From the NCBI GenBank assembly GCA_033239525.1, contig BSYO01000019.1:5213087-5277086 (forward strand): a DNA stretch of 64,000 nt. The letters run 5' to 3'. The notes beneath the pieces are model-generated. The model did no database searches, was not told where the DNA came from, and was given only the letters and a program-made list of their open reading frames with translations. A program made the translations under genes and the position numbers. Source of the stretch: Nepenthes gracilis (taxonomy: Eukaryota; Streptophyta; Magnoliopsida; Caryophyllales; Nepenthaceae). Positions 8,817-49,318 of the stretch are shown here, piece by piece (positions within the stretch are counted from its first letter, which is position 1; each line of letters starts with the position of its first letter).

Positions 8817-9789
8817 TGATAGGTACGCCAGTAGTGGGCTGGCTCAAGAAGGAGGAACGGCCCAAATCCACAATGGCCCATTAGCGTCTGACGGTCAACG
8901 CTTACCGTTAACTGGTCGAAAGGCCAATAAGCTAGGAGAAGCCTAAGAGTAGGACAGCCCACTTGGGTTCAAGACAGTCAACGCTTCCATTGACCGAAAT
9001 CATGCAAGATGGTCAATGATTCCATTGACCGGAAGCATGACCTATAAGCCGTTTGCAAACCAGGCCTCAAGTGGGCCAAACCCATTTTGAACCACGCGAC
9101 CGTCCTCGATCAACAACAGTTTTCTCCTCTGATTTAGCGCCCTTCACAAAAGACAATTTCAATGGCAACGATCATCAGTGGATTCAATGTGCATCCCTAA
9201 AGGAAGGTGCCAGAATCTTTTTCCCTGTCTACTGAAAACTCTAACAGTTACAAAACGCAAAAGAAAGGCAATCAATCTAGCGGCCATTACTGCCATAAAA
9301 GTTTCATGCCAAAAAGGCAGCAATTCTAATAGAGCGTGGGAATTAAGCCCTTCTTCACAAGGAAGGCCCCAAAGCAATGCCTATAAAACATCATGAAGTC
9401 CTCACTCCAAGGCACGCCTTCATTCACCTACAATAAGCTCACATACTTCAGACTGCAAATACTCTCTCTCTCTCTCTTTGCTACTATGTTCCCAGCGAAC
9501 ATAATACTTAGAGCTATTACTCCTCACATGCCAATAGAGCCTCTCTCAACAAGAGAACTCACCTATCTCAAACACTCTCTGCATTTCCTTACATTATTTA
9601 CTTTCACATTCTTAATTTGAGGGCTATTTGCTGACTTGAGGATCAGAGTGTTTACGGTGGGATAACCTTCTATCATCACCTGACCTCTCGTTCGTAGTTG
9701 TGGTGAACAGGATTCAGACTCAATGGATAAAGTTGAACTTAGATAACCATCTTGATTCGAATTTGTTCAAAGCTTAGATCCACGACGCA
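8817..9789 (+). repeat. 5' LTR of element A
   Basis: It starts TGATAGGTACGCC and ends CGACGCA next to the primer-binding site. A TATA box (TATAAAA, 9382-9388) probably marks the U3/R boundary. U3 contains several TTGAC cores in both orientations, for example near 8900, 8920, 8980-9000 and 9010-9030, often as GTCAACGCTT followed by TTGACC. These are W-box-like sites. Related LTRs in the window are 18479-19451, solo 48154-49053, and more distantly 57395-58479. Confidence 0.92.
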
Positions 9790-9793
9790 TTAT

Positions 9794-11480: not shown

Positions 11481-14400
11481 TCACAAGGAGTAGCAGGCTG
11501 GGCGAAAGAAATAGTGCGAGAAGACAACGTAATTAGCTTTAGCAATAATGACCTGAGCTATGTAATCTCCCCCCACGCAGATCCCTTGTTGTATCCACGC
11601 TCATTTCGGATGATAGTATCGACTACCAACAGAAACGAATTTTCATTGATAATGGAAGTTCTCATAATTTGCTTTACCTTGATGCATATTTTAAACATGG
11701 TTTAAAAAAGAGTTAGTTGAAACATATCAAAGGCCCTCTCTTTGACCTTTACAACGAACTAGTGGACGTTCAAGGAACGGTCCAGTTGAAGGTCACCCTG
11801 GGCATGTATCCAAGAACAGCGAGTCATACACTCACATTCTTAGTTATTGACCTACCTTCCGTGTACAACGCAATTCTAGGTAGCCCGTTCCTAACAACAA
11901 TTGGAGCCGCCACTTTAATACCACATCTCAAGATAAAATTTCCAATCGTATGCAGTATTGGTGAAGTGCTGGGTGACAAGTCAATGGAAGGACATGCTAC
12001 GTGTCCCAGATCACTTTAAGTGGTAGCATGAAAGCGGCAAGAGAGCTTGACCATCGAGATGAAGCAACCCTATAGTAAGCAGTCTGGTGAAGCAACCGAT
12101 CTAATCCTACTAAATTCGGAGGACCCGGAGAGATGTGTACAGATAGGGGGCTCACTCACCACGACACTGCGCGACGAGCTGGTCATGTTCTTACGACAAA
12201 ATACTAATGTCTTTGCGTAGACCCCTACTGACATACCTGGGATTCTAGCCAGAATAATGGTCCACAAGTTGGGCCTCAATCCCGACCGCAAGCCTATTAG
12301 CCTGAAGCGGATGAACCACTCTGTGAAAAAGTTGATCGCCATTCGAGAGGAGATAAAGAAGCTGTTAGATGCCGACTTCATTAGGAAAGTCCAATACCCG
12401 AATTGGCTCTCCAACATCGTCCTAGTAAAGAAAAGTAATGGAAAATGACAAATGTGCATCGACTTCACCAACGTTAACAAAGTCTACCCAAAAGACAGCT
12501 TTCCTTTACCCAAGATCGACCTGTTGGTAAACTCAACATTTGGACACGAGCTGCTAAGCTTATGGACGTGTACTCGGGCTATAATTAGATCCGAATGACG
12601 AGGAGCACCCTTCATTGATGACAGATCAAGACACTTACTGCTATAAAGTTGACCGACATAAACACGCGCTACCCATATGCAGGGAAGTTAGCCTTAGTGG
12701 TTGTCTTCTCTGGGTGTAAATTGAGACCTTACTTCAGGGCTCATTGTGTAGTAGTCCTAATTGACTAGCTTCTGAAAAGTATTCTGTAGAAAGCTGACAT
12801 TTCTGAATGGCTGGTAAAGTGGGCTATCAAATTGGAAGAGTTCGATATTGAATTCTAGCTTAAGCCAACCATCAAGGGGCAGGCTCTGGCCGACTTCATC
12901 ATCGAGACCACAACACCAATTTCTAATGAACAATTCACTGAGGATGAAAGATTACACGGGAAAGAGCCAAAATGGGTTTTAAACATGGACGGGTCGTTTA
13001 TGGACTCAAGCAGTAGCGCTGGAGTGGTCCTAAGGACCATTGAAGAGTTTGAGGTGAAGTACTCCCTTAGACTCAACTTCTTGGCCATTAATAATGTTGC
13101 TGAGTTTGAAACCCTGTTAGTTGGGCTAAGACTAGCAAAAGAGTGCTCCGCCAGATGACTAACCGTCTACAACGACTTTGAGCTGGTCGTTAACAAGGTA
13201 AACAGGAGCTTCGAGGAGTACAACCCTTACTTAGCCAAATACTTGGCTAAGATGAAGGAAGCCAGTCGGAGATTTGACAAGATGACCATGATCCACGTTT
13301 TCCAAACTAAAAACTGGAAGGCTAACCAACTAGCTAGGGTAGCGGTGGCCAAAAACCCAGAACAGTACTTGAGAGACATGCGGGAGGTCCTGAGCACTCC
13401 CAGCATGGAGGAATAAGTAGCAATACAAATCTTCAACACGGAAAGCTGGATGACGCCTTACTAGAGATTCTGGATGGACGGAGCATTGTCAGATATTGTG
13501 GATGAAGCTAAGCGCGTCATGAAGATGGCCAGCTGGTACACTATGGTCGATAGATGGTTATATCACCGTGGCTACTCGATTCCATACCTCAAATGCTTAA
13601 CTCCTGAGGAGGCTGACTACGCCTTGAGCGAAGTCCACCTTGAGATTTGCGAGTCACATATGGTCGTAAAAACCTAACTTTCAAAATCATGTGTCAAGGA
13701 TATTATTGGCCAACGATGAAGAAAGATGCCCTCAACTTCGTGAAGAAGTATAAAAATTGCCAGCTTCATGGTAATCTTCACCATCAGCCGCCCACTGAGC
13801 TGAGGACTTTTCATACTCCTTGGCCTTTCACGCAATGGGGGCTCGAAATTCTCGGCCAATTTCCCATTGTTGCTGGACAAAGGAAATGTATCATTGTGGA
13901 CATCGACTACTTCCTCAAGTGGGTCGAAGCCTCCTCGTTAGCCAAGATCACCAAGCACAAGGTTTTAGAATTAGTTCGCTGGAGTATAATCAGCAGATTT
14001 GGCATTTTCGAAGTCATAGTGACTGATAATGGAACCCAATTTTCAGAATACTCTTCACCAAGTATTGTACCAATCTAGCATCAGAGTAGTTCACACTTCG
14101 GTGGCATACCCACAAGCTAATGGACAGGTAGAGGTTACAAACCACACGTAACTCCATGGTCTAAAGACCAAGCTAAAGGATGTAGGGGTCTTCTGGGTTG
14201 ACGAACTGCTCTCCGTCCTATGGTATTACTGGACGACTCCAAAGGAACCGACTCGCTAGACGCCTTTCAATCTCTACTACGTGACTGAAGTAGTAATTTT
14301 GGTTGAGATTGGGTTTCCAAGTCTTAGGGCCTAGTCCTTCGACCTACAAGGTAACTCTCAAAAAATTTGGGAACACCTAAACTTGTTATAGGAAGCTTGC

Positions 14401-14679
14401 GACGCTACCAGGCCACGGACAACAGCCTACCAACAACAAGTCGCACGCTATTACAACAAGAAGGTAAAAGCGAGGCACTTCAAAATTGGGGACTTGGTCT
14501 TGCGAAAGATCGAACCTGTGGAAAAGACCACCAATCGGAATAAACTTTTCCCAAATTGGAAAGGCCCTTTCCTAGTCTCAGCCGTTATGCGGAATGGAGT
14601 ATACAAACATTGGACCCAGAACAGCAAGTTGGCTCCACGGACGTAGAACGCGGTCCACCTCGAGCGCTACTTCCAGTAA
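11481..14679 (+). pseudogene. pol: Element A pol, broken, with RT catalytic core deleted
   Basis: The protease part keeps FIDNGSSHNLLY (near 11640) and YNAILGSPFL (near 11870). RT fingers are at 12257-12480 (NWLSNIVLVKKSNGK). The RT then breaks off at DQDTYCYKV (near 12630) and resumes at a connection/RNase H segment (INTRYPYAGKLAL, near 12660). The stretch that should hold the Y[VI]DD motif is absent. The extra RNase H domain (12960-13260) has NMDGSFM and NVAEFE, but the third acidic motif reads YNDFELVVN. The integrase zinc region is at 13474-13720, and the core (IIVDIDYF, VTDNGTQFS) at 13870-14050. It ends in LERYFQ and a stop at 14677-14679. Many stops interrupt it. Confidence 0.9.
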
Positions 14680-14859
14680 GGTCACGGGTAGGTTATTCAT
14701 ATGTATGCTTGCACATATTGTTTATCATTGATAAAAGTACATATTTTTTTCCTTATTTGTACTGTGTCCTTTTCTTTTCCATATGCATGTGTGTCTGCTT
14801 GCAAGGTTATATGACCTAAATTGCCCCTAAGTCGGATGAATTTTTACATGCTTATAACT

Positions 14860-15096
14860 AAACCCTGATCATCCAGGCGACCCATGAGTAGTCAAAATTA
14901 AACCTTGGTCATCTAGGCGGCCTATCAGTGGTCGTAATAAAATCCTAGTCATCCAGACGACCTATTAACGTTTGAATTAAACCCTGATCATCTAGGCGGC
15001 CCATCAGTAGTCTTAAAAAAACCTTGGTCATCCAGGGGCCTATTAACAGTTGAATTAAACCTTTATCATCCAAGTGGCCCATTTGCGGTCAAAATT
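14860..15096 (+). repeat. 40-bp tandem array after element A pol, six units
   Basis: Six units of 39-40 bp follow the pattern 'aaaccttggtcatc-aggcggcc-atcagt-gtc-aatt'. The reverse complement of the array in element C (36142-36342) gives the same unit, and element D has a degenerate form. The array lies between the convergent ends of pol and the antisense ORF. No coding role is visible. Confidence 0.8.
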
Positions 15097-15471: not shown

Positions 15472-17498
15472 TTACAGCGACTTCAAAAAGTAAGGAGTAT
15501 AAAATCTACGGATGAGTAGAGCTCCCAAAGGGAGGAGGTGGCGGCCCCTAGCCACTCCGAGATTGTCCCATGAGGCTCTTGTGATGCTGGGCAGAACAGT
15601 TGATGGGTCAAGATACTCTACAGGAAAGTTGGGGTCCACCAACCGTACAATGCATCGGCAAAGGTTGACACCTTCCCACAACTGTACCACCAACATATCG
15701 GAGACCTCATGGGGGCATATACGAGTAGTCAACTCGTTCTCTAGTGATGTCATTTGTCCCACAAGTTGGTTGATACTCCTCACCACTTGGTCATTTTCCT
15801 TTTTTAGCAGGGCGTTCTCCTCTCTCAGTCTACCATTCTCCTCCTCCAGACTTGGCATTCTCCGCCTCCAAACTTGACAATATAGATTGGAGAGCGGCTG
15901 TGTCCTCCTGGTGCTCCGCTCTCTGCAATTCCATCTCCTTCTCAAACCAAGCGATCTCCCTATCTCAGTCATAGATCATCAGGTCCCTTTGGCGCAGCAC
16001 TTTACTAATTGCGCCAATTTCTTTCTCTTCCTGCAGAGACCAAACACATCAAGTAACAACAACAGAGAGGAAAATGAGAAGGAGATTGGCAGAGATTTAC
16101 TTGCCAGACTCGGCGCATCGGCCTCACTGGCCTGCTGTGAGACCTAGGCTCCGGCGGCGGAGGACGGGGAACTGCAACCTCCTAAACAAACACAGCAGCG
16201 ACCTCCACCACAGACTCATCCAACAACTCCATCATGGAGTCCTTTAACTCAACAGGCTCTCCAGTGGCTGGCTCCTCCGGCACAGTGTGTGGCTCCAAAA
16301 TCGACTCCTGTAGCTCAGTCTGCATCTCCACAGCTAGTGGCTCAACAGCCGGCTCTAGTATCTCAGTCGGCAGCTCAGTAGATGGCTCCTGCAGCTCAAC
16401 TCACGGCTCATTAACTGGCTCCAGCAACTTAACCAGCGGCTCGGTAGATGGCTCCCGCGGCTCAGCTCGTGGCTCACCAGCTGGCTCCAGCATCTCAGCT
16501 GGCGGATCAAAAGCCAAATCCTCCGGCTCATATTATGGCTCCAACACCGGCTCCACCCACGCAGGCTGTACCAAAACAATGGCACTACTCACCCCAGTGT
16601 GCAACATGTCGGCGTATGCCTCTAGAGCCAGCTCAGCTTCAACTCCTGAGCGGCCACCCATTCCTACAAGGCACCCAGCTGCCACGTAATCTGGCCCAGA
16701 GGAGGACGAAGAAGGCTGCACCGTTGCAGCCCTCTTTGTTTTGGATTGGTGGGAGCGGGGTCAATAGAAGGTGCACCGACATCACCAAGGATCATGGCTC
16801 CGCTTTCCTTTACCTCTGAGAGGCGCCGGCGGCAGAGTCCTGAACTTCTGAACTGGAGAAGGAGATCCCCAACGTGCTCTCTTGGCCTTCTCTCGAGAAA
16901 TCGAGTGGTCTCTCCTAAACTTGTCAGGGTTCTCCCTCACAAGCTCCAAAAGCTTTGCCATGGCAGCAATCTCTGCCTTCTTCACCGTCCCGGTGAAGGC
17001 CTTCGAAACTTTGCCCCAATCCCAAGACAAGGGCCGCGTATCAACAACACGGACGAAGAAGAAGTGATTCTTCCAATTCTTTAATGAGTCGTAGATGGCC
17101 TGGTTGATCGGAAAGTCTCTGGGGGACAGAGAAATCTAGTCCCCACTCTATGTAAAGCGAAACATCACCCTAACAGCATCTACTGTCTTCATACGGGAGT
17201 GATGGCGCATGAAAATACACAATGAACAAAGATATCGCATGACATTAGCGTGGAGCCGTGCAACAGGCACTTAGAGAGCAGCAAGGATGTCAAGCAACTC
17301 CTGAGGAACTGGGAGACGAAACCTACTCCTCAAATGGGCCTCATAAAGAGCGATACAACCCTCAAGAGGAAAACAAGCCCTGTCTAGCTCGCCGGGTATC
17401 ACCGAGATGATCTGCTATGGAATGTTAAACTCCACGTATAACTCTCTAACCTCACCAGGTGTGAGCACAGAAGTGATCTCCGTAACAGAAGGGGCCAT
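15472..17498 (-). pseudogene. Element A antisense ORF (aORF), broken
   Basis: The start ATG at 17498 reads MAPSVTEITSVLTPGEVREL. It aligns with the aORF of element C at 22771 and 24988 (STGEVRKLYV). The N-terminal third (17498-16780) then shows the pattern of a protein family often annotated as putative gypsy-type transposon: PGE-x-DRA near 17390, a short hydrophobic segment, then WDWGKVSKAF (17030-17000). The middle (16700-16200) is an acidic EP-rich repeat region (units like EPREPSTEP). A coiled coil follows (15870-15740, EEENGRLREENALLKKEND). It ends in the conserved EGVNLCRCIVRLVDPNFP and a stop. Frameshifts and stops interrupt it. The family is known from Tat-type elements; its biochemical role is unknown. 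Confidence 0.75.
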
Positions 17499-17811
17499 GG
17501 GAATGCAAGCGAGAAAGCAAACGACACAACATTTAGAATTTTTCAGGAAAGAAAGTCGAAGGAAAGCGTGGAAAGTTCCAAAAGTAACGGACGGACAACT
17601 TAAAGGAGTGTGAACATTGGAGAAGATGAACCATCTCGTAAACAGGTGCCCATTATTACTGACACGTGCCATTTCATGAATGGGTGTAGTCGAAATGGAT
17701 CCTCTAGCGCATTAATTACCAGTATCGAAATTCACTACATACAGACATGTGGCCAACTTTTGGATTGACAGTCCGGTGGCATGATGGCACATCGTTTTAA
17801 CTCTCGCAGTA

Positions 17812-18340
17812 CTCAAAATTTTGGCCTAGACGGTCAACAAATCCGGTCAACGCCTCTTTTAGCAAGTTCTCTAGATTTTGACCTAGACAGTTAACGAATC
17901 TTGTCAACGCCTCCTTCAGCCATTCTCTGGATTTTGGGTCAGACAATCAACAAATTCGGTCAATGCCTCCTTCAGCAAGTTTTCTGGATTTTAGCCTAGA
18001 CGGTTAATGAATCCAGTCAACGCCCCCTTCAGTAAGTTCTCCGAATTTTGGCCTAGACGGTCAATGAATCCGGTCAACTCCTCATTTATTAAGTTCTCCG
18101 AATTTTGGCCTAGACGATCAACGAATCCGATCAATGCCTCCTTTAGCCGTTCTTCTGATTTTAGCTCAGACAGTCAACAAATTCAGTCAATGCTCCTTCA
18201 GTCAGTTCTCCAAATTTTGGCCTAGATTGTCAACGAATTTGGTCAGTGCCTCTTTTAGCTAGTTCTTCGGATTTTGGCCCAAACGGTTAACAACTCCGAT
18301 CAATGAAACTCTAAGCCAGTTCTCTAGATCTTGGCTTTAC
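17812..18340 (-). promoter_or_regulatory. 57-bp tandem array with paired TTGACC boxes upstream of element A aORF
   Basis: About nine and a half units of 56-57 bp run from 17812 to 18340. Read toward the aORF (minus strand), the best units contain two TTGACC-type boxes 13 bp apart (TTGACCGGATTTGTTGACC), followed by 'gtctaggccaaaat' and 'cggagaact'. Element C has the same unit at the same distance class upstream of its aORF. TTGAC[CT] is the W-box bound by plant WRKY factors. I infer an enhancer/promoter role for the aORF. Some boxes have decayed by transitions. Confidence 0.6.
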
Positions 18341-18478: not shown

Positions 18479-19451
18479 TCATGTGTACGCCAGTAGTGGG
18501 CTGGCTTAAGAATGAGGAATGGCTCAAATCTACAACGGCCCATTAGTGCCTGGATAGTCAACGCTTACTGTTGACCGGTCGAAAGGCCAATGAGTCAGGA
18601 GAAGCCCAAGAGCAGAACAATCCATTTGGATTCAAGACAGTCAACGCTTTCATTAACTGGAATCATGCAAGATGATCAATGCTTCTATTGACCGAAAGTA
18701 TGACTAGTAGGGCGTCTACAGACCAAGCCTCAAGTGGGCCAAGCCTATTTTGGTCCACACGACCGTCCTTGACGAGCAACGATCTTCTCTCCCGATTTAG
18801 CACCGTTCACAAAAGGCAATCTCAATGGTAACGATCATCAGCGGATTCAACGCTTATCCCTAAAGGAATGTGCTAGAATTCTTTCATTGTCTGCTGAAAA
18901 TCCTAATGGTTATAAAACGCGAAGGAAGATAATCAAATTCAGCAACCATTACTACCATAAAAGTTTCATGCCAGAAAGGACAATAATTTCAACAAAGTAC
19001 AGGAATCAAGCCCTTCTCATAAGAAAGGTACTCAAAGCAGCGCCTATAAAAGACCACGGAGTCCTCATTCCATGGCACGCCTTCATTCACCTACAATAAG
19101 CTCACAAGCTTCAAATTGCAAATGCTTTCTCTCTCTTTGCCACTACGTTCCCAATGAACACAGTACTTAGAGCCAGTACTCCTCACGAGCCAACAAAGCC
19201 TCTCTTAATAAGAGCACTCACCTATTTTAAATACTTTCTGCATTTCCTTGCATTCATTACTTTCACCTTCTTAATTCAAATGCTATTTGCTGACTTGAGT
19301 ATTGGAGTATTTACAGTAGAATAACCTCACGCCATCACCTAACATCTCATTTGTAGTTGTGGTGTGCAGGATTCAGACTCAGTGGATGGAGTCGGACTCA
19401 GACAACCGACTTGATCCGAATCTGTTCAAAATTTGGATCCAGAACACATCA
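18479..19451 (+). repeat. 3' LTR of element A
   Basis: It has the same length as the 5' LTR (973 bp), with TATA box TATAAAA at 19045-19051. Its first dinucleotide has mutated from TG to TC, and it ends ACACATCA before the TSD. The expected polypurine tract just upstream is degenerate ('catagggtgtag'). Confidence 0.92.
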
Positions 19452-20488: not shown

Positions 20489-21475
20489 TGATGCGTCTTA
20501 GATCAAAATTTCGAATGGGTTCTGGTCGAGTTTTTTGTCGGATTTTGGTATCCGTCCGCTGAGTTTAAGATCTTACACACCACAATTTCAAACAATAGGT
20601 CAGGTGACGGCGGAATTTGACTCTACCAAAAATATTCTGATGCTCAAATCAGTAAATAGCCTTCCAAAGATTAGAAGGAAAGATATAGTGAATGCAAAGA
20701 TGGATGCTGGAAGTGTGTTGGGAACAACTGTGGGAGGTGCACTCGTGGAGAGAGTGACTTTGATAGTGGATGCTCGTAAGAAGCAGTGTCTCTTAGTACC
20801 GAGCTCGTTGGGAGCAAGCAGTGGAGAAGACGTTGGGGTGTTCTGAGAGCTTTCAGAGCTTTTGATAAATTTAGTATGCAAGAGCATTTTTGTATGGCAG
20901 AGAGCGTAGAAAGCTTCTGTAAGCTTGAGTATGCTAGAGGGCACTTAGTGCGCGAGAAAGCATGCTTGTGAAGTGAATCCTCATGGCCTTTTATAGCTGT
21001 GGGCTTCCATTGTCTTCCCTACGTGGCAAGGTAAGATGCCCGCCTACTGTGGGGGTCGTTGCCTTCCCCAACATGGGCGCGGGCACAATTCTAGGCTGCA
21101 ACTGTCAGGAATGAGGATTCATTTCCTTTCATGGAGATACCGCGTGCAGTGGCTGTTAGGACACTCTTTGAGGATTGCACGCTAATTTATACGCCTTCCT
21201 TTCGGGATGTACTCTATTTCTGGGATACTGCCATTACCGGTGAGATTGTCTTTCTTGGAGGTTCGGAGAATTAGGGTTATCGACCATTGAAGCTTGGGAA
21301 GGTGAGCATGGACCAATTTAGCCATGGGCTATGACTATCTTGGGCTGCGTCCAACTTGCTTGCTACTTTCTCGGTCAACGGCAACATTGACCATCCTAGG
21401 TACAAATGGGCCGTTGTTGATTTTAGACCACTTGCCCTTTTTGGGCCGACTTGCTACTGATTGGCGTCGTCATCA
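20489..21475 (-). repeat. 3' LTR of element C
   Basis: It pairs with 42091-43070. The minus-strand TATA box TATAAAA is at 20989-20995. The shared text is extensive but diverged, roughly 80-90 percent by eye. Short ORFs inside (for example 20535-20846) are by-products of LTR sequence. Confidence 0.9.
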
Positions 21476-21487: not shown

Positions 21488-22108
21488 GCTAGTGGCCTCA
21501 GATTTGGCCTCCAAGATGTTTATGATGGGACACGTCGAGCTGTGTTGTTCCCTCAGGTCTACCACAGAATCTCCTTTCCATTATTCTTGGCGTGATTCCC
21601 TTACCTTTTGGATTTTTTACACATTTACCAATACTATTGCCTTTTTGCATTTAGTGCTTCCGTTTGTTCTACAAATTGGGGAGCTTTCGGTATTCCTTAG
21701 CATCACCTTTCCACGATGCCTAGTGTGATGCCTTGAGAGCTAGGCTTTGCCGGGGAGCTTACTACTCCAGCTGCTAGTTCGGAGCTCATGCGGTTCATGC
21801 CTTCTAGCACTGCTGCTTTAAGTTGAGGAGTCTGAACTGCTTTAGTCCCCCCTTGTCGTCCGAGATGCCGCTTTGGTCACCTCTTTTAGTGGGGGTGGTT
21901 GTTGTCAAGATTCGAATGTGGGTTCGCGCTTCCTCCCCTCCATTCAAAGCCTTGATAAATCTCTCTTCCTCTTCCTATGAGTACTATCATGTATTGGCCC
22001 ATCCTGGCCGTGTAACTCGTAAGGAGAAAGTTAATGAGAAGATTTGTAGTTGTTTTTATCTCTCATTACTAAGCATGCTCCCCTATCTTTTATTTTCGCT
22101 TTGGATCC

Positions 22109-22440
22109 GTTGACCATGTCGTTTGAATTTAGCGAGTGGAGTGAAAGTGAATGCAAACCAGATTTATTGACCGTAATGCCTAAATCCGGAGGATAGAGGA
22201 GAGGTGAGAGTTGACCGGATTTGTTGATCGTGAAGTTAAAATTCGGAGAGCTGAGCAGAAGAGAGCATTGATCAGATTCATTGATCACGACGTTAGAAAT
22301 CAGACGCAGAGTGGAGGAGAAAGTTGACCGGATTTGTTGACCGCAATATTAGAATCCGGAGAACTAAGTGGTTGTGCTAGTTGATCGGATTCATTGACCG
22401 TTACACTAGAATTCAGAGAATGGTGTGCGTTGAGATTGAC
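22109..22440 (+). promoter_or_regulatory. 57-bp array with paired TTGACC boxes, element C copy 1
   Basis: About six units of about 57 bp. The fullest ones read GTTGACCGGATTTGTTGACC and later 'aatccggagaact'. This is the same unit as in element A (17812-18340), although the two elements are otherwise diverged. It lies 330 bp upstream of the aORF ATG (22771). The W-box-like core suggests WRKY-type control; that is inference. Confidence 0.65.
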
Positions 22441-22680
22441 GCGTCGTTCCGTTATTTCGCCAGACAGGCAATCGAAGAGCTGTTGAGCCATTTCGGGACT
22501 CCTGCTACTTTGAGTGACTCATTGTTCTCTGCCACGTGTCGCCATGTAGGAAAGTTACAATCTCGGTAATTAATTCACTAGAGAATTCGACCTGACTGCG
22601 CCATCTTCAAAATTGACACATGTTCGTTATAATTGCCGCATATTTTCGATGCACTACTATTATTTGATGGCGGCGACCTT

Positions 22681-22688
22681 TATAAAAG
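22681..22688 (+). promoter_or_regulatory. TATA box of element C aORF1, copy 1
   Basis: TATAAAAG lies 90 nt upstream of the ATG at 22771, in a GC-richer context (gcgacctttataaaagcc). The second duplicate has it at 24897-24904. The corresponding spot in element A is decayed. Confidence 0.6.
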
Positions 22689-22770
22689 CCTTGTGATCGT
22701 TCAAATTTTCTCACTCCTTTGTTCCTCTAGAAAAATTCTTGAGTCTTTGTCTCTCCTCTTGCTCGCTTCC

Positions 22771-24037
22771 ATGGAGCCTCCGGTCAAGATGATTTCTTTA
22801 GTTATTTCTACGGGTGAGGTTAGGAAATCGTACATTCAAGATAATATCCCCTCTCACATAGTGTTCATGATCCCTGGGGAGCATGATAGGGCTTATTCTC
22901 CTCCGACTGGCCACATTGCTGTCTATGAGCTCACCTACGGAGTGGGTTTCATCTTCTCGTTCTAAAGGAGCTTCTCCGCATTCTTATGGAGTTTCGCATC
23001 CCCATTGCACGGCTTCACACAAATGCCGTGCGTTACCTCTGCTCGTCATGCATATTTTTCTGCCAACATTTATGGTTGCTGACGATGGTGGTCGTCAGGG
23101 TTATGTTTCAGTTCATCAAGAGTGGGGACTCGATTTCACTATCTTCCCAAGAGCTACACATTAGCAGCGTGATTTACAAATCGGTCAAAAATTAGAAGGA
23201 CTAGTTCTTTTTTGTTCGATTTGTTGACGGTTGGCCCTTGTCTTGGGACTGGGGTAAGATTCCCGAGGATTTCACCAGGAAGCCCACCAAGAAGGAGGTG
23301 AGGTAGTGGAGCCGCTGTTGCAGTTGGTGATAGAGCATCTCTCCATGTTCAGGAGGGATCACCTAGTGTCCAGGGAGGAAGCCAGGAGAGCTCGTTGAGG
23401 TCCTCCCTCACCTATTCAAAAGTTCAAGACTCCACCGCTGGTGGCATCACAGTCGAAGGGGAAGGCTGGCGCTCTCACCATCGGAGATCCTCTTAGTAGC
23501 CCTGAGAAGAAGAGAGCTGCACCAGCTGAGCCTTCCTCATCGTCTTCCACTGAGCCAGATTACCGTATGGCCAATCGATTGGTTGGTGTTGCAGAGCGTT
23601 CTGAGGTGGAGAGTCTAGCTATCCCTTCAAACTTGGGAGTCACCGAGGGAGCTATCACTTTGGAGCTCGTCGTCACACCACTGCCGCCGGGTAATTCGGT
23701 GGCACCAGCTGTGCCAGTGGAGTTGGAACATGAAGCCGCAAGGTTGGAGGAGCCTACCGTTGAGCCGCCCGTAGAGTCGAAGGAGTTGGCCACTGGAGAG
23801 TTGGGTGAGGCGGGTGAAGATATTGTGGAGCCGGCTCAGGAAGTTGCCACCCTAAGCCTCCCAGCCATCTTGCTGGAGGAGTTTGCCAGTGAAGCCGCCA
23901 TGGAGTGGGCTCAGGAGGCTACTGCTCCAAGCCTCCCAGTAGGCATGCCGGAGGAGCTCCCACCATCTGGGCTTGAGTCGCAGGGCTTCACTGGTCGGAG
24001 CTCATGCGGTTCATGCTTTCTAGCGCTGCTGCTTTGA
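22771..24037 (+). pseudogene. Element C aORF1, first copy, broken
   Basis: The start ATG at 22771 gives MEPPVKMISLVISTGEVRKS. It continues with VFMIPGEHDRAYSPPTGHIA and VYELTYGVGFIFSF, then a stop at about 22963-22965. The pattern of PGE-x-DRAYSPP-x-G-x-IAVYE followed by a hydrophobic stretch fits the N-terminal domain of the antisense gypsy-associated protein family. Further frames give an acidic, E/P-rich tail (23441-24000, e.g. EEPTVEPPVESKE). The tandem duplication cuts the tail at about 23994, so this copy has no coiled coil. Confidence 0.7.
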
Positions 24038-24324
24038 GTTGAGGAGTCTGAACTGCTTTGGTCGCCCCTTGTCGTCCGGGATGCCGCTTTGGTCACCTCT
24101 TTTAGTGGGGGTGGTTGTTGTCAAGATTCGAATGTGGGTTCGCGCTTCCTCCCCTCCATTCAAAGCCTTGATAAATTTCTCTTCCTCTTCCTATGAGTAC
24201 TATCATGTATTGGCCCATCCTGGCCGTGTAACTCGTAAGGAGAAAGTTAATGAGAAGATTTGTAGTTGTTTTTATCTCTCATTACTAAGCATGCTCCGCT
24301 ATCTTTTATTTTCTCTTTGGATCC

Positions 24325-24656
24325 GTTGACCATGTCGTTTGAATTTAGCGAGTGGAGTGAAAGTGAATGCAAACCAGATTTATTGACCGTAATGCCTAAA
24401 TCCGGAGGATAGAGGAGAGGTGAGAGTTGACAGGATTTGTTAATCGTGAAGTTAAAATTCGGAGAGTTGAACAGAAGAGAACGTTGATCGGATTCGTTGA
24501 CCACAACGTTAGAAATCGGAGGCAGAGTGGAGGAGAAAGTTGACCGGATTTGTTGACCGCAATATTAGAATCCGGAGAAATAAGTGGCTGTACTAGTTGA
24601 TCGGATTCATTGACCGTTACACTAGAATTCAGAGAATGGTGTGTGTTGAGATTGAC
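24325..24656 (+). promoter_or_regulatory. 57-bp array with paired TTGACC boxes, element C copy 2
   Basis: This is the duplicate of 22109-22440, offset by 2,216 bp, with a few extra substitutions in the boxes. Its TATA box TATAAAAG is at 24897-24904. Confidence 0.65.
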
Positions 24657-24987
24657 GCGTCGTTTCGTTATTTCGCCAGACAGGCAATTGAAGACCTGTT
24701 GAGCCATTTCGGGACTCATGCTACTCTGAGTGACTCGTTGTTCTCTGCCACGTGTCGCCTTGTGGGAAAGTTACAATCTCGGTAATTAATTCACTAGAGG
24801 ATTCGACCTGACTGCGCCATCTTCAAAATTGACACATGTTCGTTATAATTGCCGCATATTTTCGATGCACTACTCTTATTTGACGGCGGCGACCTTTATA
24901 AAAGCCTTGTGATTGTTCAAATTTTCTCACTCCTTTGTTCCTCTAGAAAAATTCTTGAGTCTTTGTCTCTCCTCTTGCTCTGCTTCC

Positions 24988-26804
24988 ATGGAGCCTCCAG
25001 TCAGTGTGATTTCTTTAGTTATTTCTACCGGTGAGGTTAGGAAACTGTACGTTCAGTATAATATCCCCTCTCACATAGTGTTTATGATCCTTGGGGAGCA
25101 TGATAGGGCTTATTCTCCTCCGACTGGCCACATTGCTGTCTATGAGCTCACCTACGGAGTGGGTTTCATCTTCTCGTTCTAAAGGAGCTTCTCCGCATTC
25201 TTATGGAGTTTCGCATCCCCATTGCACGGCTTCACACAAATGCCGTGCGTTACCTCCTCGCCTCGTCATGCATATTTTTTCGCCAACATTTATGGTTGCC
25301 GATGTGATGGTGGTCAAATCTGTGGTTATGTTTCAGTTCATCAAGAGTGGGGACTCGATTTCACTATCTCCCCAAGAGCTATGCATTAGCAGCGTGATTT
25401 ACAAATCGGTCAAAAATTAGAAGGACTAGTTCTTTTTTGTTCGATTTGTTGACGGTTGGCCCTTGTCTTGGGACTAGGGTAAGATTCCCGAGGATTTCAC
25501 CAGGAAGCCCACCAAGAAGGAGGTGAGGTAGTGGAGTCGCTGCTGCAGTTGGTGATAGAGCATCTCTCCATGTTCAGGAGGGATCACCTAGTGTCCAGGG
25601 AGGAAGCTAGGAGAGCTCGTTGAGGTCCTCCCTCACCTATTCAAAAGTTCAAGACTCCACCGCTGGTGGCATCACAGTCAAAGGGGAAGGCTGGCGCTCT
25701 CACCATCGGAGATCCTCCTAGCAGCCTTGAGAAGAAGAGAGCTGCACCAGCTGAGCCTTCCTCATCGTCTTCCACTGAGCCAGATTACCGTATGGCCAAT
25801 AGATTGGTTGGTGTTGCAGAGCGTTCTGAGGTGGAGAGTCTAGCTATCCCTTCAAACTTGGGAGTCACCGAGGAGCTATCACCGTGGAGCTAAATCGTCA
25901 CACCCCGCCGCCGGTAATTCGGGTGGCACCACTGTGTGGTGGAGTTGGAACATGATGCCGCAAGGTTGGAGGAGCCTACCGTTGAGCCGCCCGTAGAGTC
26001 GAAGGAGTTGGCCACTGGAGAGTTGGGTGAGGCGGGTGAAGATATTGTGGAGCCGGCTCAGGAAGTTGCCACCCTAAGCCTCCCAGCCATCTTGCTGGAG
26101 GAGTTTGCCAGTGAAGCCGCCATGGAGTGGGCTCAGGAGGCTACTGCTCCAAGCCTCCCAGTAGGCATGCCGGAGGAGCTCCCACCATCCTGGGCTTGAG
26201 TCGCAGGGCCTATCAGGAGGGAAGAAACACAATGTTTTCCGATAATTTCATCAAAGTTGTGTTGCTCCCTTTTCTTCTTTCTCCACCATTGTAGCCTAAT
26301 CTCTTTTATTTCTTGTAGCAAGAGAAGATTGTAGGCATAGTGTTGAAGGGGTTACACCAGAGGACGCAATCATTGAAGATTGGGAGGAGGATATTCTTCA
26401 GCTAGAGGAGCAGCTGAGCCAAATGAGCGCTCAAGTTCAACAGCACTAGGAGGAGAAGGCTGCACTCCAGTTAGAGCTATCTGAAGTGAGGCTCAGTCGG
26501 CGGGGCTGGAAGAGAGGCCATCCAAGCTGAGAGGCTCACGGATGAACTTTGGGTGAAGAAAATCTCGTTGGAGAACGAGTTGTCCACTCACCTGTGCCAT
26601 GAGGAGGTCGGTCAGGCGCTTTGGGTCAGGCCCTGAGAAGGCGTCGACATCTATCGCTGGAATGTCAAGGTTGTAGATTCGGACTTTCCTGTTGGCATCC
26701 TTGACCCTTCGAACCGCAGCGCCCAACAAGGCGGGGACCTAGTTGACATCTCTCGGAGGGCACAAGGGCCTCTCTTGCGTCATCCTAGGAGCTCTGCCCC
26801 CTAA
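24988..26804 (+). pseudogene. Element C aORF1, second copy, broken but with its C-terminus
   Basis: The start ATG at 24988 (MEPPVSVISLVISTGEVRKL) is followed by the same gypsy-associated N-terminal domain and a stop near 25182. The E/P-rich middle is at 25666-26200. A coiled coil (26380-26480, QLEEQLSQMSAQVQQ) follows. The conserved terminal segment EGVDIYRWNVKVVDSDFPVG (26637-26696) comes next, then LRSSAP and a stop at 26802-26804. It carries several frameshifts. It gives the full domain order of this aORF family: N-domain, acidic linker, coiled coil, terminal motif. Confidence 0.7.
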
Positions 26805-27469: not shown

Positions 27470-29566
27470 TGTAATATCCTAAAAATTTTTTTCCAATTTA
27501 ATTGAGATTATTTATTATTTTGATAATTTGGGTGTGACAAGAATTAATTAAATATTATAAATTTTTAAATGATATTTGGATTAGTTGAGCCGGCACACGA
27601 AGTGCGCCCGTGTTGTCACCTAAGTATTAATTTGGATTTTAAAATAAAAGAAACGAAAAGTATATATATAATAATAATAGTAATAATAATAGTAAAGGAA
27701 TAAAAAGAAGGGAAAGAGGGGGTTTCGGGACAGCAAGGGGTTTCAGGTAGAGAGAGAGGGAGGGAGAAGAGAGAGAGGAGGAAACCGAGGTCTCCAGGTC
27801 TGATTCCGACCTCGAGCTAGTTGAAGAACTAATAGATCGGGTTGAAACAAATGCATCCATATCCTCCTCTTTCGTTTTCTTGCACATTCGTTTTATTTTC
27901 ATCGGGTATCTTTATTCCGATACTCGATTAAATTTATATTTCATGTTACCTATGATGTATGCATGCTTATATGTTAATTTCATGTCCGGTTTCTTAGTTT
28001 TCATCCGATTTTCATACCCAAACCCTAACCCCACGCCCGGACCCTTTTACCCATAGATGTTTGGGGCTTTTGCTCAAATTGGGTCTAGGATATCATTACT
28101 CATAACTTGTATATGTTAATTTATTGATTAGGCATCCGGTTTGGTAGTTTTATGTGAAAATTCGTCCGTTGAAACCCTAACTCGCGCCCGAACTTCGTTT
28201 AAACAATTATTTCAAGTCTAATGGATGATTTGGTTTTAATTATGATTTACCCATATCTTGAATATGTGTACTTATCGGTTTGGTATTCGATTTTCGTATT
28301 TTGACACATTTAGTGTGTCCGAAAACCCTAACCTACACACTGGCACTATTCATTCGAGGTAATTGGGTATCTTTGCATGATTCCTCCTTATTTAACTGTC
28401 AATTATGTTATAAATATTTGTATATACTTAATTGTATATTTCAGAATATATCAATGTGAACCTTTGTAAAGGAATTATCTTCTGAAAGTTTCAAGCATTC
28501 TATATTTAAAGGATAGTATCATTTGGCATGTCATTGATATTACAGCGGAGACTCAATGATTACCCTAGCTGCGTATCTTGGCTGCTTATTGGAGCAGGTG
28601 ATGTCCTTGGCACGTCTTAGGATACTACTGTGGAAGAACGAGGACTGCTTCTGGACCACGGGAGGTTAGGGAGCATTTTATTAGCCCTGTATACCAGGTG
28701 ATAGGTATACCGCTCACCACATGGTGTTTAGCCTTGTATACAAGCAAAAGTTCGCTACGGGACGTCCACTATGTCGTTTGGCCTTAGATCATATGGGATA
28801 TCATGATCCTTTTCTTATTCTCTCGCATTGTTAGTTAGTATGACTTACTAGCCCTAGTTCATAAAGATAAAGAAATTTATTCATATTTTGAAACCCTAAG
28901 AGAAAATAAAGATAAAATGTGAAAAATTACTCATATTTTTAAAATACATTTGCTCATGTTTCATATTGTGCATTCTATATTATATTCCTATCTCATTCAA
29001 TGTCCCATTTGCTTACATTGTGCATTATCTTTATTTATATTGTACTTGCTAAGCTTTGGCTCACCTTTGTTGTTTTCCTTGTCTCCAGATGAGTATGAGT
29101 TTTATACCCGATAGGACGGGATAGAGGATTAGAAGTCGGCTAGGTGTGAAGATCTTGGAGGATAGTTTGAAGGCTTAGATTTGTGATTTTATACCCTATT
29201 ATAGAGTATATTGTATTATTTTGATGGTCGTGTATATCATTGATGATGATATTGTGTATGTAATCTAGCTTCTACGGTATTTATTAGATATAGCTGCTTC
29301 CGTAGTTCTATATGGTTTAACTATGTACCTAGTGGTATCTTATCTGAACCGACGTCACACTTGGAACTATGATGTCGGTGCCACATGTTGTTAATTGTGG
29401 TATTTGGATCCTGCGTGGTTTGTTATGGTTTATGGATGCATCGGAGTTGATTTTAGATGGATTTTTGTTATTGTATAGGATATTCTACAAGTTTTATATT
29501 TATTTGGTGACTGTTTGTCTACTAGAACTCTACCAGATTTTCTAGTAAAAAAGGCGACCCGTCACA
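27470..29566 (+). repeat. 5' LTR of element E
   Basis: It is 2,097 bp, about 200 bp shorter than its partner. A block in the right LTR around 34056-34330 is missing near 28490. It carries telomere-like 'aaccctaac' text near 28020 and an AT/purine-rich stretch at 27660-27790. No genes. Confidence 0.85.
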
Positions 29567-33050: not shown

Positions 33051-35348
33051 TGTAATATTTTAAAAATTTTTATCTGATTTAGTTGGGATTATTTATTATT
33101 TTGATAATTTAGGTACGATAAAAATTAATTAAATATTATAAAAATTTGAAGGATATTTTGATTAGTTAGGTCGGCACTCGAAGTGCGCTCGTACTATCAC
33201 ATGAATATCGATTTGGGTTTTGAAATAAAAGAAATGAAATATATATATATATATTATAAAGTAAAAGAATAAAAAGACGGGAAAGAGGGGGTTTCGGGAC
33301 AGCAAGGGATTTCAAGTAGAGAGAGGGAGGGAGAAGAGGGGGGAAACCGAGGTCCCCGAATCCGATTCCGAACTCGAGCTGGTTGGAGAAGTGGTAGATT
33401 GGGTCGAGGTAAGTGTATCCATACCCTCATCTTTTATTTTCTTACACCTTTGTTTCATTTTCATCTGGTATTCTCGTTTCAATACCCGATTAAATTTATA
33501 TTTCGTATTACCCATGATTTATGCATGTTTATATGTTAATTTCATATCCGATTTCTTAATTTTTATCCGATTTTCGTACCCAAACCCTAACCCTAACCCC
33601 ATGCCTAGACCCCTTTACCTACGGATTTTTTGGGATGTTGCTTAAATTAGGTCTAGCATATCATTATCCATAACTTGTATATATTAATTTATTGATTGGG
33701 TATCTTATTTGATAGTTTTTTTTGTAAAAATTTGTCCGCCGAAATCCTAACTTGCGCCTGGACTATGTTTAACCAACTATTTCAAGTCTGATGCATGATT
33801 TGGCTCTAATTATGATTTACCTATATGAATATGTGTATCTATCGGTTTGGTGTTTGATTTTCATATTTTGACCCATTTAGTGCGTCCAAAAACCCTAACC
33901 GGCACACTGGCATTGTTCATCCTAGGTAATTGAGTATCTTTCCATGATTCCTCTTTATTTAATTATCAATTATGTTATCAATATTTATATATGCTCAATT
34001 GTATATTCCGGAATATATTAATATAAACCTTTATGAAGGAATTATCATCCGGAAGGTTTAAAGTTACATTTGGCCAATGTGTTAAGAATTTCCTAATTGT
34101 TCCAAACATTCTATTGAATTATGCACAAGTGTAAAACCACATGAACATGTAAACTCATAAGAAATGATAATCCGTATCTATATATCGGAATTAAGCATGA
34201 GATGTAAGAATACGGAGGAAATGCCACAATTTGTTATGTGAATGATCTGTTCTCCTAGTGTGAGAATTATGTGAAAGAAATTTAGTAAACTTTCCCTCAA
34301 AGATTAAAAAATCATAAAATCAGGACCATGGATTTATATTTAGAGGATAGTTCTCCTGGCATGCCATTGATATTACAACAGAGACTCAAGGATTACCCTG
34401 ACCGCATATCCTCCGGCTGCTTATTGGAGCGGGTGATGTCCTTGGCACGCCTTACTGTAAAAGAACGAAAACTGCCTCTGGATCGCGGGAGCTTAGGGAG
34501 TGTTTTATTAGCCCTGTATATCAGATGATAGGTATACCGCTCATCACGTGATGTTTGGCCTTGTATACAGGCGAAAGTTTGCCACGGGAGTCTAATACGT
34601 CATTTGGCCTTAGATTATGTGGGGTGTCATGATCCTTATTTTGTTCTCTCACATCATTAGTTAGTACGACTTACTAACCCTAATTCATAAAGATAAAGAA
34701 ATTTATATATATTTTGAAACCCTAAGAGAAAATAAAGACAAAATATGAAAAGTTACTCATATTTCAAAAATGGATTTGCTGACATTTTATGTTATGCATT
34801 CTACATCATGTTTCTATCTCATTTCCTATCCCATTTATTTATATTGTGTATTATCTTTGTTTATATTGCACTTGCTGAGTTTTGACTCACCATTACTGCT
34901 TTCCTTATCTCCAGATGAGTACGAGCTTCATGCCCAATAGGGTTGGGTAGAGGATTAGGTATGAAGATCTTAGAAGATAGTTTGGAGGTTTAGATTTGTG
35001 ATTTTGTACCCTATTATAGAGTATATTGTATTATTTTGATGGTCATGTATACCGTTGATGATGTTATACTGTATTTGATAGATATAGTTGCTTCCGCAGG
35101 TCTAATGGTTTAACTATATACCTAGTGACATCTTGTCTGAGCTGACATAATACCCTAAGTTATTACGTCTGTGCCACATGTTAATTGTGGTATTTGGATT
35201 CTGTGTGATTTGTTGTGATTTATGGATGTGTCGGAATTAATTTTAGATTGTTAGTATACATGATATTCTATAGGTTTTACATTTATTTGGTAGCCATTTT
35301 TCTGCCAGAATTCTGCCAAATTGTCGATAGAAAATACGGTCTATCACA
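33051..35348 (+). repeat. 3' LTR of element E
   Basis: It is 2,298 bp and aligned to 27470-29566 throughout, apart from an extra block at about 34056-34330. 'ccctaaccctaacccc' at about 33583-33600 is an interior telomere-like triplet, not a telomere. The LTR at the right edge of the window (61823-64000) is a reversed relative. Confidence 0.85.
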
Positions 35349-35935: not shown

Positions 35936-36562
35936 CATATTCTTGTACATGTGAAATGAATTGAACTTTCGTATTATGTGGCGCTGCCCATGTTATAATT
36001 CTGGGCGGCCAACCTTCCGTTAGAGTGTTTATTCTTTCACACTTTGCCCTAATTTATCGACCATTGTCGACTGACTACGCTATCTCCCGTTGGAGGAGAT
36101 TGTCACACATGTCATTTAAGCCACCTAAAGTTTTGTATTAGACCGTGAATAGGCCACTTGGGATGGAATCAAAATTTAATTCGACCACTTACGGGCTACT
36201 TGGCACAGGGGCCAAGGTTTAATTCGACTGCTTATAAGCCATTTGGATGACCAAGATTCAAGTCGGCTGCTAACGGGTCACTTGGATAATCAAGGTTTAA
36301 TTCGACCACTGACGGGTTACTTGGATGAACAATGTTTAAATGCAAGTGAGTGAAAACCCGTCGACTTATAAGGCAGTTTAAGTCATCTATTTTTTATTTT
36401 TTATTTTTTTTGCAACTTGTAAACAGGCATTAACATGGAGACAAAAAGAAAGAAAAGAAGTAGAGAACAATATGTAGATGAAAAGGGAAAAGAATATCTT
36501 TTATTAACAATAGTGTATGTTACAAGCACGCTTCAGATCATACAGATGACCTACTTGGGTTC
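35936..36562 (-). repeat. Element C: 40-bp tandem array and pol poly(A) signal
   Basis: 36142-36342 holds five units of about 40 bp. On the minus strand they read 'aaaccttg-atcca-gtggccc-tcagtggtcgaatt', the same unit as element A's array. Minus-strand AATAAA at 36500-36505 lies 59 nt after the pol stop (36563-36565). The remaining sequence (35936-36141, 36343-36499) shows no gene. Confidence 0.75.
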
Positions 36563-42090: not shown

Positions 42091-43070
42091 TGATGTATCC
42101 TAGATCTAAATTTCGAATGGGTTCTGGTCAAGCTGTCCATCGGATTCTAGTATTCCTCTGCTAAGTTTAGGATCCTGCACACTATAATTTCAAATAAAAG
42201 GTTAGGTGCTGACGAGATTTGATCCCATTAAAAATACTCCGACGCTCAAATTAATAAATAGTCTTCCGAAGATGAGAAGGAAACATGTAGTGAATGCAAA
42301 GATGGATGCTGGGTGTGTGTTGGGAACGATGGTGGGAGGTGCATTCATGGAGAGAGTGGCTTTGGTAGTGGATGCTCGTAAGAGCAGTGTTTCTCTGTAC
42401 CGAGCTCGCTGGGAGCAAGCAGCAGAGAGGATGTTGGGGTGTTTTGAGAGCTTTGAGAGCTTTTGATAGACTTAATATGCAAGAACGTTTTTGTATGGCA
42501 AAAAGCGTGGAAAGTTTCTGTAAGCTTGAGTATGATAGAGAGCATTAAGAGGTCGAGCGAGCATACTTGTAGAGTGAATCTTCATGGCCTTTTATAGCCA
42601 TGGGCTTCGCTGTCTTCATCGCGTGGCAAGACTGGATGCCCACCTACTATGGGGGTCGTTACCTTCCCCAGCATGTGCACGGTCGCCATTCTAAGCTGCA
42701 ACAATCAGGAATGAGGATTTTTTTCTTACGTGGAGATACCGCGTGCCGCGATCGTTAGGACACCCTTTGCGATTTGCACACTAATTTGTGCGCCTTCCTT
42801 TTGGGATGTGCTCTGATTTTGGGATACTACTATTACCAGTGAGATTGTCTTTCTTGGAGGTTTAGAGAATTAGGGTAGTCAACCGTTAAGACTTGAGAAG
42901 GTGAGCGTGGACCAATTTAGCTATGGGCCGTGACTATCTTGGGTCGTGTCTAACCTGCTTGCTGCTTCTCTAATCAACGGCAACGTTGACTGTTCTAGGT
43001 ACAAATGGACCACTGTTGATTTTAGGCCACTTGCCCTTTTTGGGCCAACTCGCTGCTAGTATTCCCATCA
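42091..43070 (-). repeat. 5' LTR of element C
   Basis: 980 bp, with TG..CA ends on the plus strand as printed, and a TATA box (TATAAAA, minus) at 42590-42596. It is followed by the exact TSD GTTAT. The internal short ORFs are not genes. Confidence 0.92.
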
Positions 43071-47800: not shown

Positions 47801-48153
47801 TTGTACTCATTACGATATTTACTTAATTTGTGGACCTTTTTTTGGATCAAATTTATCGAACCTATCCAAAGTAATTGTAATTTTTAGAAATTATGTGAAG
47901 ATAAATATTATGATATTTTGTTTATGTGGGTAATAACATTTACAATGAAAAACAATTTCTAATAGCATAAGAATTACAATTACTTGTGTTTGGTATGTAA
48001 AATTTTTTATGAGATTTAATTTTTAACTTTTTATATCTTTATTATGATATTTTTTAATAAAATTATTATATAGAAATATATAACGGATAGAAAACATTTG
48101 GCCGGGGAAATAACCTATAAAATTATTGTATCGATTTATTTTATTTTTATTTT

Positions 48154-49053
48154 TGATTGGTATGTCAGTAATGGATTTGTCCAAAAAGAAGGAACGGCCC
48201 AAATCCACAATGACCCATTTACGTATGGACGATCACCGCAAATAGTTGGCCGGACGAAAGGTAAATGAGATAGTCAAAGTCCAAGAGTAGGACGACCCAT
48301 TTGGGACCAAAACGGTTAACGCTTCCATTGACCCATGCATTTGTCCTTGTGTAGTAACGATCTTCTCCCCTGATTTCGCACTCTCCACAAAAAACAACCT
48401 CCATCGTAACGATTTCCCCAGAATCAATGTGCATCCCTGAAGGAATGCATTAGAATATTTTCCTATCTGCTAGAAACCCTAACGGTTACATGATGTAGAA
48501 GGAAAACAATCAACCCAACGCATCTATATAGGTTATAAAAGACAGCATGCCAAAAAAGACAACGGTCCCAATAAAGTGCGCAAGTATTAAGTCTTTTTGC
48601 ACAATGAAAACAGTCAAGCTCAGCGACTATAAAATGTCATAGAGTTCATATTTCAAGGCACGTTCTCACTTGCCTGCAAAAAAGCCTTTTTTTGCAAAAA
48701 CTTTTACACTTTCAGCATTTTAGCGCTCTCTATCTTTATATTGCGTTCCCAACGAACACAATATTTAGAGATTTTGCTCATAACGAGCAACCCAAGTCTC
48801 TCAGCCTATGAGAACACCCCCATGAAACAAACACTCTCAACATTCATATTAAACTTCATTGTATCCACCTTCTTACTTCGAAGGTATTTTATTGACTTTA
48901 AGATTCGAGTGTTTTCAATGAAATAACCTCCCGTTGTCACCTAACCTTTTGTTTGCAATTGTAGTGTGTAGGATCCAAATTTAGTGGACAGAGTCAGATT
49001 CAGATGAACGATTTAACCCAAATCTGTTAGAAATTTAAATTCATAACTTATCA
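48154..49053 (+). mobile_element. Solo LTR of the element A family
   Basis: It is a 900-bp match to the A LTR from its start (TGATTGGTATGTCAG) to its end (TTATCA). It is flanked by a perfect 5-bp TSD ATTTT (48149-48153 and 49054-49058). A TATA box TATAAAA is at 48628-48634. It is the product of LTR-LTR recombination. Confidence 0.88.
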
Positions 49054-49312
49054 ATTTTAAAAAATCTAAAAATGATTTCTTTATATACTATTTCTTCACT
49101 CAAAATATGTTTAGTTGTCAAGTAAGAATAATGACAATGTATTGTTTAAGAGATATCAATGCTACAGGAATGGCGGACATGCCAATGAGGGGTTCTCATT
49201 TGGTTTGTCGCGGTGGCGACTGTGGGTGGCCTGGGGTGGTGAGGGTTTTAGCCACTGAGCGGCGGCAGAAATTTGCAGTGCGTGACGATTTGAGGCCCAC
49301 ATATTTTAGCTG

Positions 49313-49318
49313 TTTATT
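49313..49318 (-). terminator. Candidate poly(A) signal of the UGT gene
   Basis: Minus-strand AATAAA lies 136 nt beyond the UGT stop codon. A (TA)n run (49339-49365) and a run of T on the minus strand (just after the stop) lie between. The region 49059-49312 shows no gene. A GC-rich patch at 49160-49290 is unexplained. Confidence 0.45.

Follow-up and report, generated by a model that had tools for sequence, protein, structure and literature searches.

The 64,000-bp stretch of the Nepenthes gracilis genome analyzed here (contig BSYO01000019.1, positions 5,213,087 to 5,277,086 of the forward strand; hereafter the window) contains two long terminal repeat (LTR) retrotransposons, element A on the plus strand and element C on the minus strand. 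Both carry an array of 57-bp tandem units with paired TTGACC boxes, located between an antisense open reading frame (aORF) and the 3' LTR. We compared these arrays with relatives sampled in the host genome of 752.5 Mb. The array is genuine and conserved and probably regulatory, and the comparisons given below support this well. We lean toward the view that it serves the aORF of one sublineage of old Tat/Retand-type elements as the activating upstream portion of an internal antisense promoter, with a host WRKY factor as the likeliest protein to read it.

The paired-box array and its core

A first-pass annotation of this DNA had described a 57-bp tandem unit with two TTGACC-type boxes 13 bp apart in A and C. 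Tandem Repeats Finder (TRF) and core scanning both recovered this unit; in element A, TRF gave a period of 57 bp and 8.6 copies at 17818-18305. The units (Table 1) contain a 20-bp core composed of TTGACC, GG, ATT, two variable letters, TTGACC, and G, with the starts of the two boxes 13 bp apart. In 40 relatives, successive TTGAYY sites are likewise most often 13 bp apart (95 cases). The arrays lie about 296-807 bp (A) and 334-617 bp (C) upstream of the aORF start codon, close to the 330-850 bp annotated at first. Most unit spacings are 54-62 bp, and the last third of the unit is variable. The tail 'cggagaact', which had been annotated as conserved, is only partly kept, with the motif GGAGAACT found in 25 of 40 relatives. 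At one locus, L027, the array has grown to 28 units, as if it were heading toward satellite DNA.

Element C contains a 2.2-kb tandem duplication (21779-23986 versus 23995-26209, 95.8% identical) that doubles the array, the promoter stretch, and the aORF start. This segmental duplication rules out that the two arrays of C are independent of each other. A strict TTGAC[CT] is kept in box 1 of five and box 2 of three of the nine units of A, and in box 1 of two and box 2 of three of the five units in the first array of C. The box losses are mainly C-to-T or G-to-A changes. These are the changes expected of methylated dead copies, from which we infer their cause.

Paired boxes did not arise by chance, as judged from shuffle tests. 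The arrays contain 17.6 boxes per kb, a density reached by 0 of 500 shuffles, which bears out the excess of TTGAC boxes that the first-pass annotation had proposed to look for. The probability that a letter-shuffled unit bears two boxes is ~0.0008. The remaining scored segments of the window contain 0-2.4 boxes per kb, with gag-pol of A and 49110-64000 mildly above their shuffles (p ~0.02).

Conservation of the core among relatives

Relatives were collected in different ways. A first genome sample was found via the array of A itself (273 units at 39 loci) and is biased toward array-bearing copies. Two further samples were found by the aORF protein alone, comprising 40 A-like loci taken in rough steps down a list of 150 scored matches and 20 C-like loci out of another 150. 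The A-like sample excluded the earlier loci and favored matches beginning near the start of the reading frame, and the C-like loci were chosen likewise. The 15,914 and 7,035 candidates behind these two samples are word matches, not copies.

The first-pass annotation had allowed that relatives might lack the array or contain boxes at random. All 40 A-like aORF loci and 18 of the 20 C-like ones instead contained at least two bipartite cores when up to 6 of 20 mismatches were accepted, a limit that favors conserved cores. As a control, the reversed core gave 3 matches in total across the 40 A-like loci. With at most three mismatches, at least two cores were found at 39 of 40 A-like and 17 of 20 C-like loci, and none of 20 letter-permuted cores had at least two matches at this limit in either sample. 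A motif-free count of 6-mers led to the same sequence: TTGACC, GTTGAC, TGACCG, and CGTTGA each occurred upstream of -290 at all 40 A-like loci, in regions that take in some LTR sequence and for which the expected occurrence was 8.8-11.5 of 40. Within -580 to -290 the four were found in 40, 39, 38, and 36 of 40 loci, respectively. Among the C-like loci, TTTGTT and TTGTTG occurred in 20 of 20, and TTGACC and GTTGAC in 19 of 20.

Counted in transversions, the core is also the part of the unit that changes least. In a gapped alignment of A with C, transversions amounted to 0.027 in the core versus 0.217 in the rest of the unit. Across the 273 units from the array-found loci, transversions were on average fewest in columns 1-21 and most frequent in columns 44-57. 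Our strongest result comes from relating core identity to overall divergence in 1,830 pairs of 61 sequences, namely A, C, and the 59 sampled loci that have a core. The promoter gap was taken as the 250 bp before the start codon, and its identity ranged from ~0.50 (chance, 0.477) to above 0.80. Mean core identity was 0.77-0.80 in every bin of promoter-gap identity. Identity in the 40 bp after the core dropped from 0.62 to 0.28 across the same bins in an ungapped comparison, in which small insertions and deletions push identity toward chance.

The two LTRs of one element are identical at insertion. Transversions per site between them are now 0.029 in A and 0.034 in C. Core transversions in the divergence test reached 0.086 in the bin of lowest identity (14 pairs), and the other five bins gave 0.031-0.060. 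Since these values are near the LTR-LTR decay, most of the core difference between families is explained by decay after insertion. Between A and C, transversions were 0.079 in pol, 0.148 in the promoter gap, and 0.134 in the LTRs. Judged from these alignments, the core changed little in the source elements and was, up to the time of insertion, under much stronger constraint than its flanks. As safeguards against the effects of the ungapped comparison, the mismatch limit, and shared descent, we rely on the motif-free 6-mer count, on core identity staying flat across the bins, and on the gapped comparison of A with C.

These comparisons bear on a neutral origin, in which the arrays would be hypervariable Tat-type repeats of the 3' untranslated region (UTR) that slippage or strand transfer generated in the course of reverse transcription, the boxes being simply carried along. 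Such repeats are frequent in the lineage (PMC7004042, PMC11963269). Both elements also have a 40-bp array with a similar unit, located between pol and the aORF, and within A the core and the remaining unit differ about equally between units (0.249 versus 0.276). Neutral repeats, however, predict equal divergence of core and flank between elements. What we observed was flat core identity beside a collapsing flank, core transversions near the post-insertion level, and units of C that differ about twice as much outside the core (0.481) as within it (0.230). A neutral origin is thus disfavored and, in our estimate, very improbable. Inheritance by tandem copying alone was rejected on the contrast between core and flank, and the free variation of monomer sequence and length between families that characterizes Tat repeats was not found here, the core being kept across families.

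The second array has a unit of ~40 bp and lies at 14855-15082 (plus strand) in A and at ~36140-36345 (minus strand) in C. The two regions align at 66-68%, and the unit is recognizably alike. Because this array is also common to A and C, tandem form alone is uninformative.

TTGAC boxes also occur in the unique 3' (U3) part of the LTRs, where the first-pass annotation had not noted them. In A they are located at 18556-18694 in the 3' LTR, some as inverted pairs, and at 8892-9031 in the 5' LTR, including a 35-bp tandem pair, with a density of 13-17 per kb. The 3' LTR of C has an inverted TTGAC pair near its start. Among the loci found via the array of A, all 37 in which U3 could be scored (2 of 39 were not scored) contained at least two boxes per 300 bp, and 23 loci had inverted U3 box pairs, loosely defined. 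A further LTR-like sequence akin to the LTR of A, here called the third LTR (48149-49108), has two TTGAC boxes in its U3-like part. It has no adjoining core array; a lone core match with five mismatches is located at 45817.

A putative antisense promoter and its possible readers

Both aORF copies in the window are interrupted, and the aORF was matched in many genome copies. Across 36 sequences, differences at the three codon positions were 0.285, 0.222, and 0.439, a bias indicating that the aORF once encoded a protein under selection. At the 36 of 39 array-found loci with an aORF match, 269-341 bp separate the end of the array from the estimated aORF start. Of the 40 A-like loci, 28 have a G-box (CACGTG) in the promoter gap, versus a mean of 2.0 in shuffled sequence, as do 15 of 20 C-like loci (no shuffle control). 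TATAWA was found at -100 to -70 in 12 of 40 A-like loci, compared with 0.27 in shuffled sequence, and 85-97 bp before the start in 16 of 20 C-like loci, again without a shuffle control. In the 290 bp adjoining the gap, 198 boxes face the antisense gene versus 10 in the other orientation. The G-box, the codon bias, and a TATA box that stands near -90, chiefly in C-like copies, fit a putative antisense promoter in part.

In the reading that we prefer, each unit would be a bipartite 20-bp protein-binding site (TTGACC, GGATT, TTGACC), and tandem copies would raise its occupancy. The bound array would activate the antisense promoter, with its G-box and in many copies a TATA box, for the accessory aORF. 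With TTGACC half-sites in U3, often inverted, one factor could couple sense transcription of gag-pol to antisense transcription of the aORF. That the array is bound, that it activates, and by which protein, we infer from the DNA. If it is a conserved binding array, a host WRKY factor would have an even chance of being its reader, the remainder being shared equally between the aORF protein and some other host factor. A host WRKY factor is placed first because of the motif and the recorded binding of WRKY factors to the LTR of the retrotransposon EVADE. The copies in the window are decayed, and present activity is a separate question.

Several observations weigh against this interpretation. Neither TATAWA nor TTATAAA was found in the 220 bp before the start at any of the 36 loci found via the array of A; in A the sequence at the place of the TATA box is CTTTAAG, and a TTTAAG stretch is also seen there in many closer relatives of A. 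The distance from the array to the 3' LTR is fairly constant (102-221 bp, median 181, at 37 loci), and for this reason position does not single out the aORF. Both strict boxes survive in just 62 of 182 units of relatives, which fits the decay of dead copies. Among the C-like loci, L108 has no core and L111 has one. The copies share descent and the cores were located under a mismatch limit, and the counts are therefore not independent events. The core is not strictly frozen, its transversions climbing somewhat with divergence. In U3 of C and of the third LTR, the box density of 6.7 per kb is not a significant excess (shuffle p 0.08-0.14). The conserved site is wider than two W-boxes: between them stands an ATT that varies as little as they do, which plain WRKY sites would not need, and the two preceding Gs are somewhat less invariant. 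Lastly, the array is absent from all five loci of other TRP28 families, that is, loci with a PF04195 match over the cut-off (L088-L092).

Of 723 candidates, 150 were scored, and these five loci are the complete set that matched at E <= 0.001. They contain 0-3 boxes per ~1.7 kb, and L089 has one core match with six mismatches on the opposite strand. That the array is general to all TRP28 elements is rejected by these loci, and its absence from them indicates that it belongs to one sublineage. A scan of IMG/VR with the core gave 0 matches.

The lack of a canonical TATA box at the loci found via the array of A and the short distance to the 3' LTR would also suit a function in the sense direction, in which the core acts as a 3' UTR RNA element or as an enhancer or insulator of the 3' LTR and the aORF is a bystander. 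Many units (17794-18305, 22154-22437) hold arms resembling CCGGATT and AATCCGG, 19 nt apart; the second block, which is AATCCGGAGAACT-like and moderately conserved, forms this inverted repeat with the core. It is the best paired of 720 slid registers. Covariation, however, was no better than in shuffles for 14 units (130 of 500 at least as high) and was weak for 273 units, where shuffles were as high in 45 of 500 cases within loci and 11 of 500 across loci. An RNA hairpin was set aside on these results. The G-box, and the TATA box where found, are moreover positioned for the antisense direction. We regard a sense function as distinctly unlikely.

Alternatively, the array could be the target of the element's own TRP28-like aORF protein, acting in the regulation of its own gene or in anti-silencing. 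VANDALs are DNA transposons. They encode VANC proteins that bind tandem arrays of motifs with rapid turnover (PMC5735166), and the aORF protein might act in a similar way. A 20-bp site suits a dedicated binder better than do plain W-boxes, half-sites are present in U3 and array alike, and TRP28 is predicted to bind DNA (PMC11963269). The aORFs of the array lineage accompany the array and the sampled other TRP28 loci lack it, but this co-occurrence is also expected from common descent. VANC targets shift fast between related families, whereas the core is alike in A and C. A PF04195 (TRP28) search of the aORF copies in the window gave no match, and an open aORF copy at L033 matched this family below the cut-off (E = 0.06; 14 bits versus 26.2). 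A search for homologous proteins with the aORF gave nothing at E <= 0.001 among 484 candidates, and an NCBIfam search gave no match. We consider it unlikely that the aORF protein is the target's dedicated binder in this sense.

A related proposal is an operator of the sublineage, made up of the nearly invariant 20-bp site, amplified in tandem at the aORF, and the inverted U3 half-sites, with the accessory protein, alone or together with a host factor, as its reader. It would form a feedback loop that couples sense and antisense transcription, as a counterpart of VANC anti-silencing or of retroviral antisense circuits. The invariant ATT would then belong to the recognition site, making it more than a set of W-boxes. 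We hold this proposal to be unlikely.

The host elements and known systems

A and C each have an LTR pair, a target-site duplication, and a long internal region, as in the Tat clade (Table 1). The target duplications, as we read them from the flanks, are 5 bp long, ATAAC/ATAAC for C and ATGTT/ATGTC, with one mismatch, for A. Empty copies of the DNA flanking A and C are found at 56369-59594, where both pre-insertion sites are visible. In A, a PF13456 match (E 9.5e-13) lies between the RT_RNaseH match and the integrase along the strand, and the PDB matches of this second RNase H stretch are RNase H proteins. The RT_RNaseH match is weak (E 0.049, below the cut-off), the integrase is represented by H2C2 above and the core domain below the cut-off, and a Pfam search for the reverse transcriptase domain of A gave no match. 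The same order of RNase H, additional RNase H, and integrase is stated for Ogre and Retand (PMC6317226). A has the extra RNase H between RNase H and integrase that marks the Tat clade, and both A and C have the antisense ORF between pol and 3' LTR that marks Retand. They are old Tat-lineage Ty3/gypsy copies, probably of the Retand lineage. Inside C there is also a pair of direct repeats (27470-29552 and 33051-35334, 79-81% identical), which could represent the LTR pair of another, nested element.

Table 1. Positions of the features of elements A and C in the window
Feature	Position	Strand	Remarks
5' LTR of A	8823..9790	+	80.6% identical to 3' LTR of A
Pol segment of A	12649..14707	+	Order: weak RNase H match, second RNase H (PF13456), integrase
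aORF start region of A	16785..17498	-	ATG 17498; broken by stops; coding-like codon-position signature across copies
G-box CACGTG in A	17663..17668	-	Between array and ATG
Array of A	17794..18305	-	Nine units, 56-57 bp, each starting with the 20-bp core
3' LTR of A	18485..19449	+	LTR pair of element A
3' LTR of C	20489..21458	-	LTR pair of element C
Array of C, first copy	22154..22437	+	Five units, 56-57 bp apart; box 1 of unit 1 degenerate
G-box CACGTG in C	22533..22538	+	Between array and TATA box
TATA box, putative antisense promoter of C	22681..22686	+	90 bp before ATG; second copy 24897-24902
aORF start region of C	22771..22962	+	ATG 22771; second copy ATG 24988
Array of C, second copy	24370..24653	+	Inside the 2.2-kb tandem duplication of C
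5' LTR of C	42091..43057	-	82.4% identical to 3' LTR of C

Retand elements have antisense ORFs in all clusters and tandem arrays in about half of the elements, and their repeats between pol and the 3' LTR are described as family-specific and of unknown origin and function (Vicient 2025, PMC11963269). A and C resemble them in combining an antisense ORF with tandem arrays in this region. Unlike in those elements, one core is kept here across diverged families, upstream of a G-box and often a TATA box, and the aORF matches TRP28 only below the cut-off. In maize, the element Grande carries gene23, an antisense accessory gene transcribed from a promoter of its own (Gomez-Orte 2013, cited in PMC7264820). 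A and C are like Grande in that the long internal region toward the 3' end contains such an antisense gene with a promoter upstream, which is putative here. The difference lies in the paired-box array, none being mentioned for gene23 in the available part of PMC7264820, and in promoter activity, which we only suppose for A and C.

The tandem repeats in the 3' UTR of Tat/Ogre elements are hypervariable (Macas 2009, cited in PMC7004042). The arrays of A and C share their location in the element and their tandem form; unlike the Tat/Ogre repeats, which vary in sequence and monomer length, they have units of mostly 54-62 bp and a near-invariant core. In Arabidopsis, WRKY factors are reported to bind W-boxes in the LTR of EVADE/ATCOPIA93 (PMC12786077). 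EVADE and the elements described here share TTGACC/T boxes in a plant LTR retrotransposon, and boxes are present in U3 here too, but the boxes of EVADE, a Copia element, act on the sense LTR promoter, whereas the main array of A and C faces an antisense gene and is a putative binding site. In the VANDAL/VANC system the element-encoded binder has been demonstrated and the motif turns over; here the motif is stable and the binder is a candidate.

Antisense accessory genes with their own promoters and tandem repeats in the 3' region of Tat/Retand elements were already known (PMC7264820, PMC11963269, PMC7004042). A search of the open-access literature found no report of paired TTGACC boxes arrayed upstream of the antisense ORF in Tat/Retand elements, and the conserved paired-box array as part of a putative antisense promoter appears to be new. 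PMC11963269 describes the long stretch from pol to the 3' LTR in Tat/Retand elements, with its antisense ORFs and tandem repeats, as having no known function, and PMC7004042 describes its repeats as hypervariable; part of this stretch behaves here like a constrained regulatory site. The array provides a concrete site for asking what controls the antisense genes of plant retrotransposons. We know of no earlier candidate target for TRP28-type proteins, although no exhaustive search was made. Should the element's own protein be the reader, the array would be the first candidate target known to us for these widespread proteins. Should a host WRKY factor read it, many copies would be wired to defense or stress signals on their antisense strand.
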